From Bacillus sp. 103mf (GTDB lineage: Bacteria > Bacillota > Bacilli > Bacillales > Bacillaceae_G): a stretch of 64,000 bases of DNA. Positions 3,910 to 31,262 of this stretch are shown in pieces; position 1 is the stretch's first letter, and each line of letters opens with the position of its first letter. The notes under the pieces were generated by a model. That model saw nothing but the letters and a program-made list of their open reading frames with translations. It ran no database searches and had not been told where the DNA came from. A program made the translations under genes and the position numbers. Location of the stretch: assembly GCF_900116295.1 (NCBI RefSeq), contig NZ_FPAF01000004.1, positions 124,001-188,000 of the forward strand, written 5' to 3'.

Positions 3910-4767
3910 ATGACAATAAAAATTATTACAGATAGTGCGGCGGACTTACCGAAAGAACTGCTTCATACTTATGATATAGAGGTTATCCCTCTTCGTGTAT
4001 ATGATGAACAAGAAAATGAATTTTTTGACGGGATAACACTAGATCCGATTGACTTACTTCGAAATATGAGAGAAGGAAAAGTATATAAAACATCATTACC
4101 TTCTTTAGAAAAAATTCAAGAAGTATTTACTACATACGCAAAACAAGATGCTACCTGTATTTATTTAGCTTTTTCTTCCGAGCTTTCTGGCACATATCAA
4201 TCTTCTGTTCTTGTAAAAGAGGAAGTAAAAGAAACATACCCTAATTTTTCTTTAGATATTATTGATACAAAATGTGTATCAATTGGTCAAGGATTAGTTG
4301 TATTAGAAGCTGCCAAACTGGCACAAAGCGGAGCAACAAAAGAAGAAGTATTAAATCGTATTGCATTTATGACTAAGCATATGGAACACATAGTTACTGT
4401 TGCAGATTTACAATATTTAGTTCGTGGTGGACGATTAAGTAAAGTAGCAGGGTTTATAGGTGGTTTATTAAATATTAAGCCTATTTTAAACATAGAAGAG
4501 GGAAAACTTATTCCGCTAGAAAAAATACGCGGCCGGAAGAAAGTATTTCAACATATAATAGATATGATGGAAACAAGGGGTAAGGACCTTGAAAATCAAA
4601 CAATTGGAATTTCACACGGTGATGATTTAGAAAGTGTTAACATATTAGCAGAAATGATTACTGAAAAATTTGGATGCAAAGTATTTGTAGTAAATTCAAT
4701 TGGTGCGGCTGTAGGAGCCCATGCTGGTCCGGGAACATTAGCTATCTTTTTCTTAAATGAACTATAA
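3910..4767 (+). CDS. DegV family fatty-acid-binding protein
   Basis: 285 residues, full length for DegV proteins. The N-terminus IITDSAADLPKEL is the family hallmark. Further family blocks are SGTYQS (about residue 98), VADLQYLVRGGRLSK and IGAAVGAHAGPGTLAI near the C-terminus. Members bind a fatty acid in a deep cleft and, in Gram-positives, can act as FakB-type partners of a fatty acid kinase. No kinase gene is adjacent. It is a single-gene unit between repeats and a terminator. The start has a weak GAGGT ribosome site. Confidence 0.92.
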   Translation: MTIKIITDSAADLPKELLHTYDIEVIPLRVYDEQENEFFDGITLDPIDLLRNMREGKVYKTSLPSLEKIQEVFTTYAKQDATCIYLAFSSELSGTYQSSVLVKEEVKETYPNFSLDIIDTKCVSIGQGLVVLEAAKLAQSGATKEEVLNRIAFMTKHMEHIVTVADLQYLVRGGRLSKVAGFIGGLLNIKPILNIEEGKLIPLEKIRGRKKVFQHIIDMMETRGKDLENQTIGISHGDDLESVNILAEMITEKFGCKVFVVNSIGAAVGAHAGPGTLAIFFLNEL

Positions 4768-4771
4768 GAAG

Positions 4772-4812
4772 GAAAAAGTCTCTTGAAAATAAGGGGCTTT
4801 TTCTTTTTTATT
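4772..4812 (+). terminator. Terminator after degV-like gene
   Basis: AAAAAGTCTCTT and AAGGGGCTTTTT arms with a T-rich tail, immediately after the stop codon. Confidence 0.65.
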
Positions 4813-4914
4813 TGTCACTTTGCTGTAACAAACACTAATTATAATCATAAATGGAAATAGCAGAAATGAGAGAGTATATTAGTAAAATATATGTATTGTA
4901 TACGGGGGAATAAT

Positions 4915-5562
4915 ATGAGGATATTAATTGCTGATGATGAACAAGATATGTTGAAAATTTTAAAAGCTTATTTTGAAAAGGAAGGCTTTCAAGTTTTTTT
5001 AGCTAAAGATGGAGAGGAAGCTTTACATACCTTCTATCATGAGAAAATAGATTTAGCAATTTTAGATTGGATGATGCCGAAAATAAATGGCTTATCTGTT
5101 TGTAAAGAAATGAAGAAAAATTCCAGTATAAAAGTTTTAATGCTCACAGCAAAAAGTGAAAATGATGATGAATTAACAGCACTAAATTGCGGAGCAGATG
5201 AATATGTAAAAAAACCATTTCATCCAGGAATTTTAATTACGCGAGCAAAGAAACTTCTCAATAAAGGCGAAGTTGTTCGAATCAAAAATATAAAAATTGA
5301 TTTGAATAAGTATAAAATATATAAAGATGAAGAAGAACTTGATGTAACAAAAACAGAATTTGAGCTAATTAAATGCTTCTTATATCATAAAGGAAGTATT
5401 TTAACACGAAAGAAATTACTAGATATGGCATGGGGATTCGATTATTTTGGAGAAGAAAGAACGGTTGATACTCATATTAGAAGATTACGCAAAAAAATAG
5501 GAGAAGGTATTATAAAAACACATCGAGGTTTAGGATATAGTTTGGAGGAACATAGTGAATAA
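4915..5562 (+). CDS. OmpR-family response regulator
   Basis: 215 residues from ATG 4915, chosen because GGGGGAA lies 7 bp upstream. An in-frame upstream start at 4891 lacks a site. Receiver domain: DD acidic pair at ILIADDEQ, phosphoacceptor Asp in LAILDWMMPK, Thr in MLTAKS and Lys in VKKPFHP. C-terminal winged helix ends VDTHIRRLRKKIGEG and THRGLGYSLEE. It overlaps the downstream histidine kinase by 8 bp, so the two are translationally coupled. Target genes are unknown. No transporter gene is adjacent to hint at the signal. Confidence 0.93.
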   Translation: MRILIADDEQDMLKILKAYFEKEGFQVFLAKDGEEALHTFYHEKIDLAILDWMMPKINGLSVCKEMKKNSSIKVLMLTAKSENDDELTALNCGADEYVKKPFHPGILITRAKKLLNKGEVVRIKNIKIDLNKYKIYKDEEELDVTKTEFELIKCFLYHKGSILTRKKLLDMAWGFDYFGEERTVDTHIRRLRKKIGEGIIKTHRGLGYSLEEHSE

Positions 5563-6934
5563 ACTTGGTAAAAAACTATTCATTAGTATATCGATTGCAA
5601 TTTTTTTAATTTTCACCATTTCACTACTTTTAACGAATTATTTCTTACCAAAGTATAATTTATACAAAACGAAAGAACAAATAAATAAAGTTACAGCTCA
5701 AATAAAACAGCAGTCAAAAGAAGAATTTATAAATGATATTTCAAGAATAGAACAGCAGTACAATATATCTATTGTGTATGTGCCAATTAATAGTACAGCA
5801 GATGATATAAATTGGTCTTTACGTGAACGACTATCAAAAAAACAAATTACACTAAGTAAATTTTGGATTGTAAAAGAAGATTTAAAACATGTAAAAGAGG
5901 GAGGGAAAGTAAATACATTATATGATCAAGAAAAATTGAAAGCCAGCTTCTTTGCTAGTTTTATTGCTAAAGACGACATGCTTGTTTTAGTAGGTGTTTC
6001 TATTGCACATTCTAATGAAATTATACAAATGATCAATCAATTTAACCTATATATATTTGGTTTTTCAATTGTTCTTGTGATTGTATTAGTATGGGTACTA
6101 TCTAAAAATATAACAAGGCCGCTAAAAGAATTAAGTGATGTTGCAAAAGATATTTCAAATCTAAACTTTAAAAAAACAAACATTAAAACAAATGATGAAA
6201 TTGAAGATTTAGCAGTGAGTATTAATGTAATGAGCAATAAATTAAATAAGGCTCATCAAGATTTAACACAGAAAAATGAAAATTTAAAAGTATTTATGGC
6301 AAATATTACACATGAATTAAAAACACCTATATCGTTAGTAAAAGCTTATTCTTTAGGAATAAAAGATGGATTAGACGATGGAACGTATGTAGATACGATT
6401 ATAAAACAAACAGATAATATTTCAAATTTGATAGAAGAATTGTTGCGGTTTTCTAAAATAGAACGAGATGCTATTAGTAGGGAAACATTTAATGTGGTCA
6501 CGCTTTTTTATTCTATATTACAAAAGTATGAAATCGAAATACAGTCTAAAAATATAAAAATAGATATTGAAGCGAATCAAAGTGAGATGTTTATTACTGC
6601 TGATAAAGATCAGATGGAAAGGGTTTTCAACAATCTCATAACAAATGCTATTAAATACACAACGAACTACAAAATTATCGTGGAATTTAAAGAGTTAGAA
6701 GAACAAGTATTATTTAATATTAGAAATGGTGCAGATCAACTACACATAAAAGATATTGAAAAGATTTGGGAGCCTTTCTTTGTTTTAGAATCATCTAGAA
6801 GTAAAGAAATATCTGGGACAGGATTAGGTTTAGCTATTGTAAAAGGAATACTTGAGCGACATGGCTTTCAATATGGTGTGCGTACTTTTGAAAAGGAAAT
6901 TCAATTTTATATGTATATGGAAAAGAGCTTATAG
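5555..6934 (+). CDS. Membrane sensor histidine kinase
   Basis: 459 residues, GTG start with TTGGAGGAA upstream, overlapping the regulator gene. Transmembrane segment at about 7-29, extracytoplasmic domain of about 130 residues, second segment at about 163-182, HAMP, then HisKA with phosphoacceptor His in NITHELKTPISLVKAY. The ATPase domain has an N box (NNLITNAIKYT) and G box (GTGLGLAIVKG). Partner of the regulator immediately upstream. The extracellular domain is not one I recognise. Confidence 0.93.
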   Translation: MNKLGKKLFISISIAIFLIFTISLLLTNYFLPKYNLYKTKEQINKVTAQIKQQSKEEFINDISRIEQQYNISIVYVPINSTADDINWSLRERLSKKQITLSKFWIVKEDLKHVKEGGKVNTLYDQEKLKASFFASFIAKDDMLVLVGVSIAHSNEIIQMINQFNLYIFGFSIVLVIVLVWVLSKNITRPLKELSDVAKDISNLNFKKTNIKTNDEIEDLAVSINVMSNKLNKAHQDLTQKNENLKVFMANITHELKTPISLVKAYSLGIKDGLDDGTYVDTIIKQTDNISNLIEELLRFSKIERDAISRETFNVVTLFYSILQKYEIEIQSKNIKIDIEANQSEMFITADKDQMERVFNNLITNAIKYTTNYKIIVEFKELEEQVLFNIRNGADQLHIKDIEKIWEPFFVLESSRSKEISGTGLGLAIVKGILERHGFQYGVRTFEKEIQFYMYMEKSL

Positions 6935-6949
6935 TATAGGCTCTTTTTT
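6920..6949 (+). terminator. Terminator overlapping the kinase stop codon
   Basis: Arms AAAAGAGC and GCTCTTTTTTT around TTATAGTATAG. The stop codon lies in the stem-loop. Confidence 0.7.
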
Positions 6950-7075
6950 TGTTTTAACATAAAAGTATATACTGTGAGATAATTATTAAGACAAAATAGA
7001 GATTTTATTATATAATTTTCACATAATAAATATTAAAATTTAAACGTTTAAAAATTTTTTCAAGGAGATTTGTGC

Positions 7076-7306
7076 GTGAAAAACATTGATTTTATTCTTG
7101 AAAGTGATGAACTATTAAAGCCGTCAGAACGACTTATTTTATTATTATTAGAAAAACATAGAATACTATATACAAATGATTTACTCGTTTTATCAAATTT
7201 ATCGTATAAAACATTAGTAGATTCTTTAGCAACACTTATTATGAAATCTTATATAATAAAAGAAACTGGAAAAGGCCGCAAACAAAACAGATATAGTTTA
7301 ATATAA
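7076..7306 (+). CDS. Small winged-helix DNA-binding protein
   Basis: About 76 residues. GTG 7076 is preferred because CAAGGAG ends about 9 bp upstream. TTG 7070 is too close. Predicted helices carry a helix-turn-helix (YTNDLLVLSNLSYKTLVDSLATL) and a wing ending GRKQNRYSL, resembling MarR- or plasmid replication-type winged helices. It sits alone between the two-component system and a tyrosine recombinase, with its own terminator. Target unknown. Confidence 0.7.
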   Translation: MKNIDFILESDELLKPSERLILLLLEKHRILYTNDLLVLSNLSYKTLVDSLATLIMKSYIIKETGKGRKQNRYSLI

Positions 7307-7330
7307 TTTAATTATTGTAAACTAAAAAGA

Positions 7331-7362
7331 GGAAGAGCTTATTTGATAGCTCTTCCTCCCTT
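7331..7362 (+). terminator. Terminator
   Basis: Strong stem: GAGGAAGAGCT and AGCTCTTCCTC with loop TATTTGAT, then CCTTTGTTTT. Confidence 0.7.
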
Positions 7363-29453: not shown

Positions 29454-30020
29454 ATGGATTTAGAAATAGTTTTTGAAGAATTTCCGATTTTGGAATCTAC
29501 GAATTTAGTATTAAAGAAGATTGAAGATGTTCATTTACAGGACGTATATGCAATCTATAGTAACGATAAAGTATTTGAATACTGCGGAATTATCCCGAAA
29601 CATAATATGAAGACGGTAAGTAAGATGATTCAACACTTTGAGAGAGACTATAACAAACAGAGTAGAATTAAGTGGGGGATTTTCCAAAAGAATAAAAGCG
29701 ATACATTAGTTGGGATTATTGAAGCGATGGATTTTAATCGAAAGGTAAATATGGTCACAATCGGATACTTTTTAGCTGAAGAATACTGGGGGAAAGGAAT
29801 TGCATCTGAAGCCGTTCATACAGTTGTAAAGTTTTTATTCGAGGATGTCCATATAAATAGAATTCAAGCTGAAGTTATGCCAGCAAATGACATATCAAAA
29901 AAGGTACTTTTAAAGAACGGATTTATAAAGGAAGGATTATTAAGACAAGCTACTTTATGGTCTGGGAAGGGAATTGTTGATTTAGAAATATATAGTGTTC
30001 TGCAAGAAGATTATATATGA
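29454..30020 (+). CDS. GNAT N-acetyltransferase, RimJ/RimL type
   Basis: 188 residues, ATG behind AAGAAGGGGAG. Acetyl-CoA binding block EEYWGKGIASEAVHTVVKF and catalytic-type motifs IQAEVMPANDISKKVLLKNGF are typical of ribosomal-protein N-acetyltransferase relatives. Final gene of the run starting at 26647. The repeat copy 7 starts at the stop codon. Confidence 0.9.
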   Translation: MDLEIVFEEFPILESTNLVLKKIEDVHLQDVYAIYSNDKVFEYCGIIPKHNMKTVSKMIQHFERDYNKQSRIKWGIFQKNKSDTLVGIIEAMDFNRKVNMVTIGYFLAEEYWGKGIASEAVHTVVKFLFEDVHINRIQAEVMPANDISKKVLLKNGFIKEGLLRQATLWSGKGIVDLEIYSVLQEDYI

Positions 30021-30298
30021 TATATAAATCCAAATTAAAAACCTGATATAAACCCCTTTTCTTTTTAGATGGTCGAGAGCATCTGGCCATGCGTAGAAGC
30101 GGTCAGGGCCTTTTCCTGCCACGCGCAAAGTTTGAAAACAAAGAAAGATAGCAAGGTGCAGTGCCATTTTTATCTTCATAGTAGCAATCTATATGATGAA
30201 AAATGAAAATAACTTTCTATAGGTAATAAGAAGCGTATTTTCGCTGGAATCATATTCCTTACCAAACTTCTAAATGAAATGTATGGCTGAGTAGTTAC
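30018..30298 (+). repeat. bcr-like repeat, copy 7, with MITE right end
   Basis: The bcr core runs from 30018 to about 30204 (TATATAAATCCAAATT, TGGTCGAGAGCATCTGGCC, GCGTAGAAGCGGTCAGGG). It continues into GCGTATTTTCGCTGGAAT, CTTCTAAATGAAATGTATGG and the terminal CTGAGTAGTTAC (30287-30298), shared almost exactly with the element at 30917-31160. No matching left terminal repeat is present. Confidence 0.7.
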
Positions 30299-30324
30299 GC
30301 CAAATTTATAATACCTCGGCAAAA

Positions 30325-30361
30325 CAAGAAAAAGATCTTCGTTAATGAAGATCTTTTTCCA
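30325..30361. terminator. Bidirectional hairpin
   Basis: GAAAAAGATCTTC and GAAGATCTTTTTC arms around GTTAAT. Confidence 0.6.
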
Positions 30362-30435
30362 CATTAAATAACAACAATATAAAATTACCCACCACTAGTA
30401 GTTAAGTGTAATGATCCCGTATTATAAATTACCGT

Positions 30436-30760
30436 TTAATCTTTAATTTTCCACCTACATATCATATGAAGTCGCCCTTCTTTTAATTCTGCTTGAAGAG
30501 ACCCACCCATTTTTAGCATTAGAGTTTTCGTAATAGATAAACCTAATCCCGTCCCTTTTTCATATCTAAAGATTCTCTCTTTCAACCTTTATGATGTTAA
30601 ATCTTTTTCCATTTGCTAAATAAACCTCTGCAACTATATGTTGTCTCCTGATAATCGCATCACTTAAATAAATAAATTTTCTTTCGCCACTTCCTTCACA
30701 TCCGGATTTTCTTTTACATATTCTTCTCATACCTAACTTTGGATTTATGAAATATGACAC
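30436..30760 (-). pseudogene. Sensor histidine kinase C-terminal remnant
   Basis: The minus strand reads EKGTGLGLSITKTLMLKMGG then a typical end, RLHMICRWKIKD, with stop at 30436-30438. This is the G2 box and tail of a histidine kinase ATPase domain. Upstream pieces (GKRFNIIKVEREN and VKENPDVKEVAKENLFI) appear in other frames, so at least two frameshifts separate them. No H or N box remains. A leftover of a kinase gene, bracketed by the two related repeat elements. Confidence 0.65.
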
Positions 30761-30784
30761 CTAAGAAAATGCAGAAAAGTAAAA

Positions 30785-30828
30785 AACACCCTCTTACAGA
30801 TATACTACCGAAGAGGGTGTTTTTTATC
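30785..30828. terminator. Terminator-like hairpin in the decayed region
   Basis: AAAAAACACCCTCT and AGAGGGTGTTTTTT arms. Orphan: no intact gene ends here. Confidence 0.6.
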
Positions 30829-30916
30829 AAACTTTATTTCAAAGCTACATGAAACAAACAGCAAACCTAAAAATAATCTTATCCTCAGGGTAAAAATTAT
30901 ATTCTATTCCATTAAC

Positions 30917-31160
30917 GTAACTACTCAGTCACTCTATGAAAACCGATAGAAAAGCATTTTTTTAAGTGGTCAAGAGGGACTGGCCATGTATAGTAGCGGT
31001 CAGTGTCTTTTCCTGCCACGCGCAAAGTTTGAAAACAAAGAAAGATAGCAAGGCGTAGGTCCATTTTTATCTTCATGGCAGCAATTATAGGTAAGCGTAT
31101 TTTCGCTGGAATTATACTCTTTACCAAACTTCTAAATGAAATGTATGGCTGAGTAGTTAC
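30917..31160 (+). mobile_element. MITE-like element with bcr-like core and 8-bp target duplication
   Basis: Terminal inverted repeats GTAACTACTCAG (30917-30928) and CTGAGTAGTTAC (31149-31160). Flanked by CCATTAAC (30909-30916) and CTATTAAC (31161-31168), 7 of 8 bases identical, as expected of a target-site duplication. Inside is bcr-like repeat copy 8 (AGTAGCGGTCAGTGTC, CCTGCCACGCGCAAAGTTTG) plus the block GCGTATTTTCGCTGGAAT. 244 bp, no gene, so non-autonomous. The 8-bp duplication is typical of IS66-type transposition; that assignment is inference. Confidence 0.7.
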
Positions 31161-31262
31161 CTATTAACTTAATAACGATAATAATAAGAAACAGTCATCA
31201 TTTATTCTCAGTGTTCGTAATAAAATGATACAAGAACATTCGTGTTAACGGGAGGAAGAAGA

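Follow-up and report, generated by a model that had tools for sequence, protein, structure and literature searches.

Positions 30917–31160 of the window (the whole 64-kb stretch of DNA that was analysed) hold a non-coding element of 244 bases, which is quite probably a non-autonomous MITE of the ISBst12 group (IS66) that carries a captured bcr1-like core and was moved in trans. The parts of the element and its flanks are as follows.

30909–30916, no strand: left flank CCATTAAC, left copy of the 8-bp target duplication, 7/8 identical to 31161–31168
30917–30931, plus strand: left terminal inverted repeat, 12 bp perfect, 14/15 when extended
30932–30938, plus strand: short stretch leading from the left terminal repeat to the bcr1-like core
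30939–31091, plus strand: bcr1-like core (HMM, 4.7e-38), without the usual left boundary and most of the right end
31092–31145, plus strand: right interior, for which no credible match was found elsewhere
31146–31160, minus strand: right terminal inverted repeat, 15 nt identical to the transposase-side IS end in locus L146, an identity that holds by construction as L146 was fetched by the 15-base pattern of this end
31161–31168, no strand: right flank CTATTAAC, right copy of the target duplication

The perfect 12-bp inverted ends described in the initial annotation were borne out (12/12), with GTAACTACTCAG at 30917–30928 and CTGAGTAGTTAC at 31149–31160, and 14 of 15 positions agree when the repeats are extended to 15 bp. 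The element has no ORF of ≥80 aa, and its 244 bp are too short for a transposase of ~480 aa; no IS66 gene was seen among the window ORFs of ≥170 aa (list read by eye). Chance expectation was taken from 200 dinucleotide shuffles of the window, considering pairs up to 600 bp only. Perfect 12-bp inverted pairs with a span of 60–600 bp numbered 15 in the window against a shuffle mean of 8.2, so the ends by themselves are unremarkable. The flanks are what single this pair out. The near-perfect 8-bp duplication claimed for it was confirmed at 7/8 positions, 30917/31160 was the only one of the 15 pairs whose flanks matched at ≥7/8, and any such case occurred in just 1 of the 200 shuffles. Without regard to ends, flank agreement of ≥7/8 at the same spacing was seen at 87 of 63,692 window positions. 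The motif CYATTAAC followed by the end (≤3 mismatches) occurred once in the window, against an average of 0.01 in shuffles. Taken together, ends and 8-bp duplication thus exceed chance.

The 8-bp duplication had earlier led to a tentative assignment to IS66. The ends and the 8-bp duplications of complete elements support this assignment and restrict it to the ISBst12 group of single-gene IS66 elements. Seven complete ISBst12-type elements, each about 1.55–1.9 kb long and with a transposase gene, had ends differing from the 12-mer at 0–3 positions, and six of them, all except L146, were flanked by exact 8-bp duplications. Four were fetched by protein, giving evidence independent of the motif, and were our choice among the 60 matches listed: ISGka4 (pHTA426), ISGst1 (pGS18) and elements on a Planococcus lenghuensis plasmid and an Anoxybacillus plasmid. 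Their ends lay 1–3 mismatches from the 12-mer, and all four had exact 8-bp duplications. The motif-fetched element of G002:C40 and the inner element of L213 likewise had ends with 0–3 mismatches and exact 8-bp duplications, that of the inner L213 element being AATTCAAA. Agreement in the motif bases is by construction at the motif-fetched loci (L146, L177, L179, L181 and L213). Loci L214, L215 and L217, each with a single end at ≤2 mismatches, were left out of the complete-element count. The 12-mer also adjoins IS66 transposases in three loci from Ectobacillus-family genomes (L177, L179 and L181). For ISDge4, another member of the ISBst12 group, the available text of PMC12898284 gives ends GTGACTACTCAGCA and GTAACTGCTCAGCA, an 8-bp repeat and a report of transposition.

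The left end of the element could be followed somewhat further. Its first 15 nt are identical to the outer ISBst12-like end in L213, an identity of which only bases 13–15 are independent as this locus was fetched by the 12-mer, and 30917–30938 as a whole is alike to that outer end at 19 of 22 positions (counted by eye). At 1349–3495 of L213, from a Bacillales genome, an ISBst12-type element lies beside the outer end of another and seems nested in its remains. Full IS elements with ends like those of the element (0–3 mismatches), the existence of which had been raised as a check, were found in seven cases, but no full-length IS with its subterminal sequences was found. When the right 76 bp was compared with 397 Bacillales genomes, scoring at most two candidates per genome among the matches listed, weak matches were returned in 20 genomes (best E 5.9e-4). 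Neither an IS66 match nor an end (≤2 mismatches) at locus positions 1300–1800 was found at 15 loci from this search.

We also surveyed how specific the end is. The exact 12-mer occurred at 48 places in 46 of the 397 Bacillales genomes; 31 of these 48 loci were examined, of which 4 had an IS66 match and 27 had none. An inverted 12-mer pair closer than 600 bp was absent from all 48 places. A control search for PF03050 at large, across 101 Bacillales genomes, returned 78 matches, and none of the 30 loci examined had a credible pair of the element's end. The only loose pair, in L338, had 6 mismatches and flanks matching at 3/8, and in four of the 30 loci exact 8-bp duplications accompanied ends of the GTAAGC type or GTAACCG/GTAAGCG. 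Because the pair was absent from the 30 loci and four of them had other ends, the motif appears to mark the ISBst12 group and not IS66 at large; many of the 30 loci are fragments, which makes this a modest control.

A pattern scan of viral contigs for the 15-base form of the end returned 93 stretches, of which one (L146) had an IS66 match and the other 92 had none. L146 contains a 1,621-bp ISBst12-type element (5732–7352) with both ends present and a 494-aa frame, the transposase matching Pfam PF03050 (2.7e-53) and NCBIfam NF033517 (5.9e-101). Searching other viral contigs for relatives of this transposase recovered only L146's own contig. The L146 element has no target duplication; a frame at 4492–5748 runs into its end and the sequence on its other side is different, for which an IS-mediated rearrangement would be our guess.

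Two copies in the 64-kb window carry ISBst12-type ends, one two-ended (30917–31160) and one one-ended (30020–30298). The earlier statement that the other eight window copies lack these ends did not hold for the latter, which has the exact right end at 30287–30298. It is made up of two parts.

30020–30224, plus strand: bcr1-like repeat with its own left boundary intact (HMM, 7.7e-56)
30225–30298, plus strand: right part of the second copy, with the ISBst12-type end at 30287–30298

No left ISBst12-type end was found on this copy. Positions 31095–31160 of the element match the end of the 30020 copy at 63 of 66 positions (3 mismatches) and the two share the same core subtype. Given this common core subtype and right part, both copies probably descend from one composite ancestor. 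Near the right junction, 29 bp and 6 bp of the 30020 copy are missing from the element. The 30020 copy may have lost its left end, or may represent the state before the left end was joined. A perfect 12-bp inverted pair, 104 bp apart, occupies 30303–30430 and starts 5 bp past the last base of the one-ended copy. Between the two composite copies, a hairpin at 30780–30826 has a perfect stem of 16 bp, a 15-nt loop and a T-rich arm and is terminator-like by eye; the terminator scan did not call it.

The interior of the element had been described as akin to eight other dispersed copies in the window. This held up, both in a single-sequence search with the element core, which finds the other window copies, and in an HMM built from all nine copies, element included. 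The HMM describes a repeat unit of ~200 bp with its own AT-rich boundaries. Judged by eye from the alignment, the left boundary (TATATAAAT-like) is present in eight of the nine window copies and absent from the element only. We regard this dispersed repeat as putatively bcr1. The ~200-bp unit fits the printed account of bcr repeats, which in the available text of PMC6542083 are 100–400 bp long with mobility linked to a TTTAT motif.

Available portions of PMC6542083 and PMC8725734 give bcr repeats as confined to the Bacillus cereus group, and the initial annotation had also treated the repeat as group-specific. This was contradicted by a census of Ectobacillus panaciterrae (G001), which gave 34 bcr1-like hits at E ≤ 1e-4 in 393,870 bp, equivalent to 1.4% of that DNA, using an HMM of the window copies plus two E. 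panaciterrae copies. Two queries against the same genome returned at least 46 and at least 49 matches at E ≤ 0.01, the best 40 of 353 and of 413 first-look candidates being scored. The bcr1-like repeats of G001 (L081, L178, L218–L247, L248, L250–L277 and L305–L324) fall into at least two subfamilies, and some are in tandem. Full-length Ectobacillus copies had sharp boundaries (65 rows after the full-length filter, of which at least two are the same places twice and three have a cut or missing left flank). In the 30-bp flanks of these full-length copies no ISBst12-type end was found except in L218, which is the same place as L178. At this place (L178, site 1299–1512), a bcr1-like repeat at 1299–1497 is separated by 3 bp from a lone GTAACTACTCAG facing away from it. 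This lone copy is the only exact GTAACTACTCAG in G001 and is similar to the end that an ISBst12 remnant has at another place in that genome; a second ISBst12 remnant there has no repeat beside it.

Outside G001 the repeat was hardly seen, with weak or short matches in G002, G012, G232 and G303. Locus L082 (G002) holds a divergent, partial bcr1-like match at 1469–1552 (HMM, 6.3e-8). The element itself, compared with 19 Ectobacillus-family genomes, gave three short matches of 50–73 bp in two genomes. A full window copy compared with the 397 Bacillales genomes, taking the best two candidates per genome among the matches listed, was matched in three at E 1e-4, namely G001 and two genomes with 34–43-bp matches. 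Plasmids and phages gave no match to the element, plasmids gave none to a bcr1-like window copy, and exact patterns of the right end, core and right interior had 0 occurrences in viral contigs. Within titles and abstract openings, the literature searched showed no ISBst12-type or IS66-type MITE in Bacillus and no bcr1 in Ectobacillus. The dense Ectobacillus repeats are a more surprising by-product than the element itself. As far as the bcr1 identification holds, they contradict the printed restriction to the B. cereus group and make E. panaciterrae a second lineage in which to seek the mobiliser of the bcr1-like repeat.

Several other explanations of these data were weighed. A chance origin of the ends and the 8-bp match, with an ordinary bcr1-like copy lying in AT-rich DNA, is hardly credible; perfect 12-bp inverted pairs are indeed common in the window (15 against 8.2), but pair and flank match coincided in just 1/200 shuffles, and an IS group that makes 8-bp duplications has ends of the type of this 12-mer. 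The end at 30287 and that at 30917 could instead be the outer ends of a larger element, of which the 244-bp unit is a part, and 30284–30299 and 30916–30931 do form an inverted pair (94% over 16). However, these ends face outward when seen from the intervening DNA, the 8 bases that lie beyond each (ATGTATGG and TCACTCTA) do not match, and the duplication belongs to the pair 30917/31160 (pairs up to 600 bp tested), which renders a larger element highly improbable. It is unlikely, though a good deal less far-fetched, that the element is a copy of a described bcr family (bcr2 or bcr3) and so not new, which would be compatible with the MITE reading; bcr1–bcr3 are called MITE-like in the available text of PMC3446304 and placed in group A in that of PMC6542083.

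The initial annotation had also posed a choice between capture of the repeat by a transposon end-pair and decay of a once complete element. If the repeat had begun as a complete element bounded by GTAACTACTCAG and the remaining copies had since decayed and lost these ends, then the right end retained by the 30020–30298 copy and the proximity, at 3 bp, of the Ectobacillus repeat at L178 1299–1497 to GTAACTACTCAG would be readily accommodated. Decay is nevertheless very improbable. The common AT-rich left boundary occurs in eight of the nine window copies and not in the element (by eye), full-length Ectobacillus copies are sharply bounded and lack an end in their 30-bp flanks except at the L178 place (L218), and the L178 end faces away from its repeat. 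The boundaries of the window and Ectobacillus copies largely refute decay, and because the element has neither the left boundary of the other eight window copies nor the sharp boundaries of the Ectobacillus copies, capture is the favoured alternative on the sequence comparisons made here. The repeat is most plausibly an independent element, whose union with ISBst12-type ends is secondary.

With capture as the favoured origin, a bcr1-like repeat would have inserted into a defective ISBst12-type element or MITE and so come to lie between two ends, and internal deletions would then have shortened the composite. A transposase acting in trans, from a full-length ISBst12-group element, would have inserted this composite here, making the 8-bp duplication, one base of which would have changed since. 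bcr1-like repeats in general would have spread by a route of their own. Counting against the MITE reading, the duplication is 7/8 rather than 8/8 and one copy only has both ends.

It is doubtful, and on balance quite improbable, that bcr1-like repeats and ISBst12-type ends are found together above chance level. The basis for such an association is the two window copies together with G001's only exact GTAACTACTCAG, 3 bp from a repeat; with one repeat per ~11.6 kb, the chance of a repeat within 5 bp outside an end is ~0.001 by after-the-fact arithmetic. The second G001 remnant, which is not beside a repeat, and the full-length Ectobacillus repeats, which are otherwise without ends, argue against it. 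If true, ISBst12-group transposition would have contributed to the spread of the bcr1 family from one lineage to another, which would explain the abundance of the repeat in both the window's lineage and Ectobacillus.

The insertion site, between an acetyltransferase gene (29454–30020) and a DUF2515 gene (from 31242/31263), has the look of worn intergenic DNA. The product of the DUF2515 gene, the first one downstream, matches PF10720, and its closest relative among 80 related loci is 86% identical and comes from E. panaciterrae. Plasmid records from Priestia and Peribacillus, five in all, were the only matches to a 16-kb stretch of the window, and neither these nor the 80 loci included a close relative. 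When the joined flanks were compared with the 80 related loci, the right flank aligned and the left gave only a stray 28-bp match in L015, far from the site. Just right of the element and upstream of the DUF2515 gene, a 44-bp stretch (31186–31229) matches 34 of the 80 loci. In L014 this stretch falls within the 5′ start of a squalene-hopene cyclase gene that is divergent, so it looks like a remnant here. On the minus strand, 30445–30576 resembles the C-terminal part of a histidine kinase ATPase domain (PF02518, 2.7e-4, below the Pfam cut-off). A scan for promoters and terminators around the insertion was uninformative (3 promoter-like sites against 1.8 expected, 0 terminator-like), and there is no indication that the insertion affects the gene downstream. 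When three copies were folded as RNA, one of them on both strands, z-scores ranged from 0.04 to −1.00 with no unusual structure, and Rfam gave 0 matches at the gathering score.

One bcr1-like copy now has a named, testable mobilising system, setting the element apart from the rest of the bcr1-like family, for which no mobiliser was identified. The members of the ISBst12 group considered here (ISGka4, ISGst1 and ISDge4; ISBst12 itself was compared by name only) have terminal repeats 0–3 mismatches from the element's GTAACTACTCAG and, like the element, 8-bp target duplications. However, complete members are about 1.55–1.9 kb with a transposase gene, whereas the element is 244 bp and without one. 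Classical IS66 elements have the transposase family and the 8-bp duplication in common with the ISBst12 group, but their ends begin with GTAAGC or similar (the pair being found in 4/30 loci), unlike those of the element. In common with bcr1 of the B. cereus group, with which it is putatively identified, the core belongs to a dispersed ~200-bp family; the copy in the element differs in having lost the family's own boundaries and in sitting between transposon ends. Finally, MITEPsy1, as described in the available text of PMC3189936, resembles the element in being short and non-coding, with IS-type ends and a target duplication. It differs in its length of 100 nt, its ISPsy2-like ends (possibly of the IS5 family), its 4-nt duplication and the fact that its movement was observed. 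MITEPsy1 and the element were both probably moved by the enzyme of another element, and MITEPsy1 provides, according to that text, a precedent for a bacterial MITE moving in this way.
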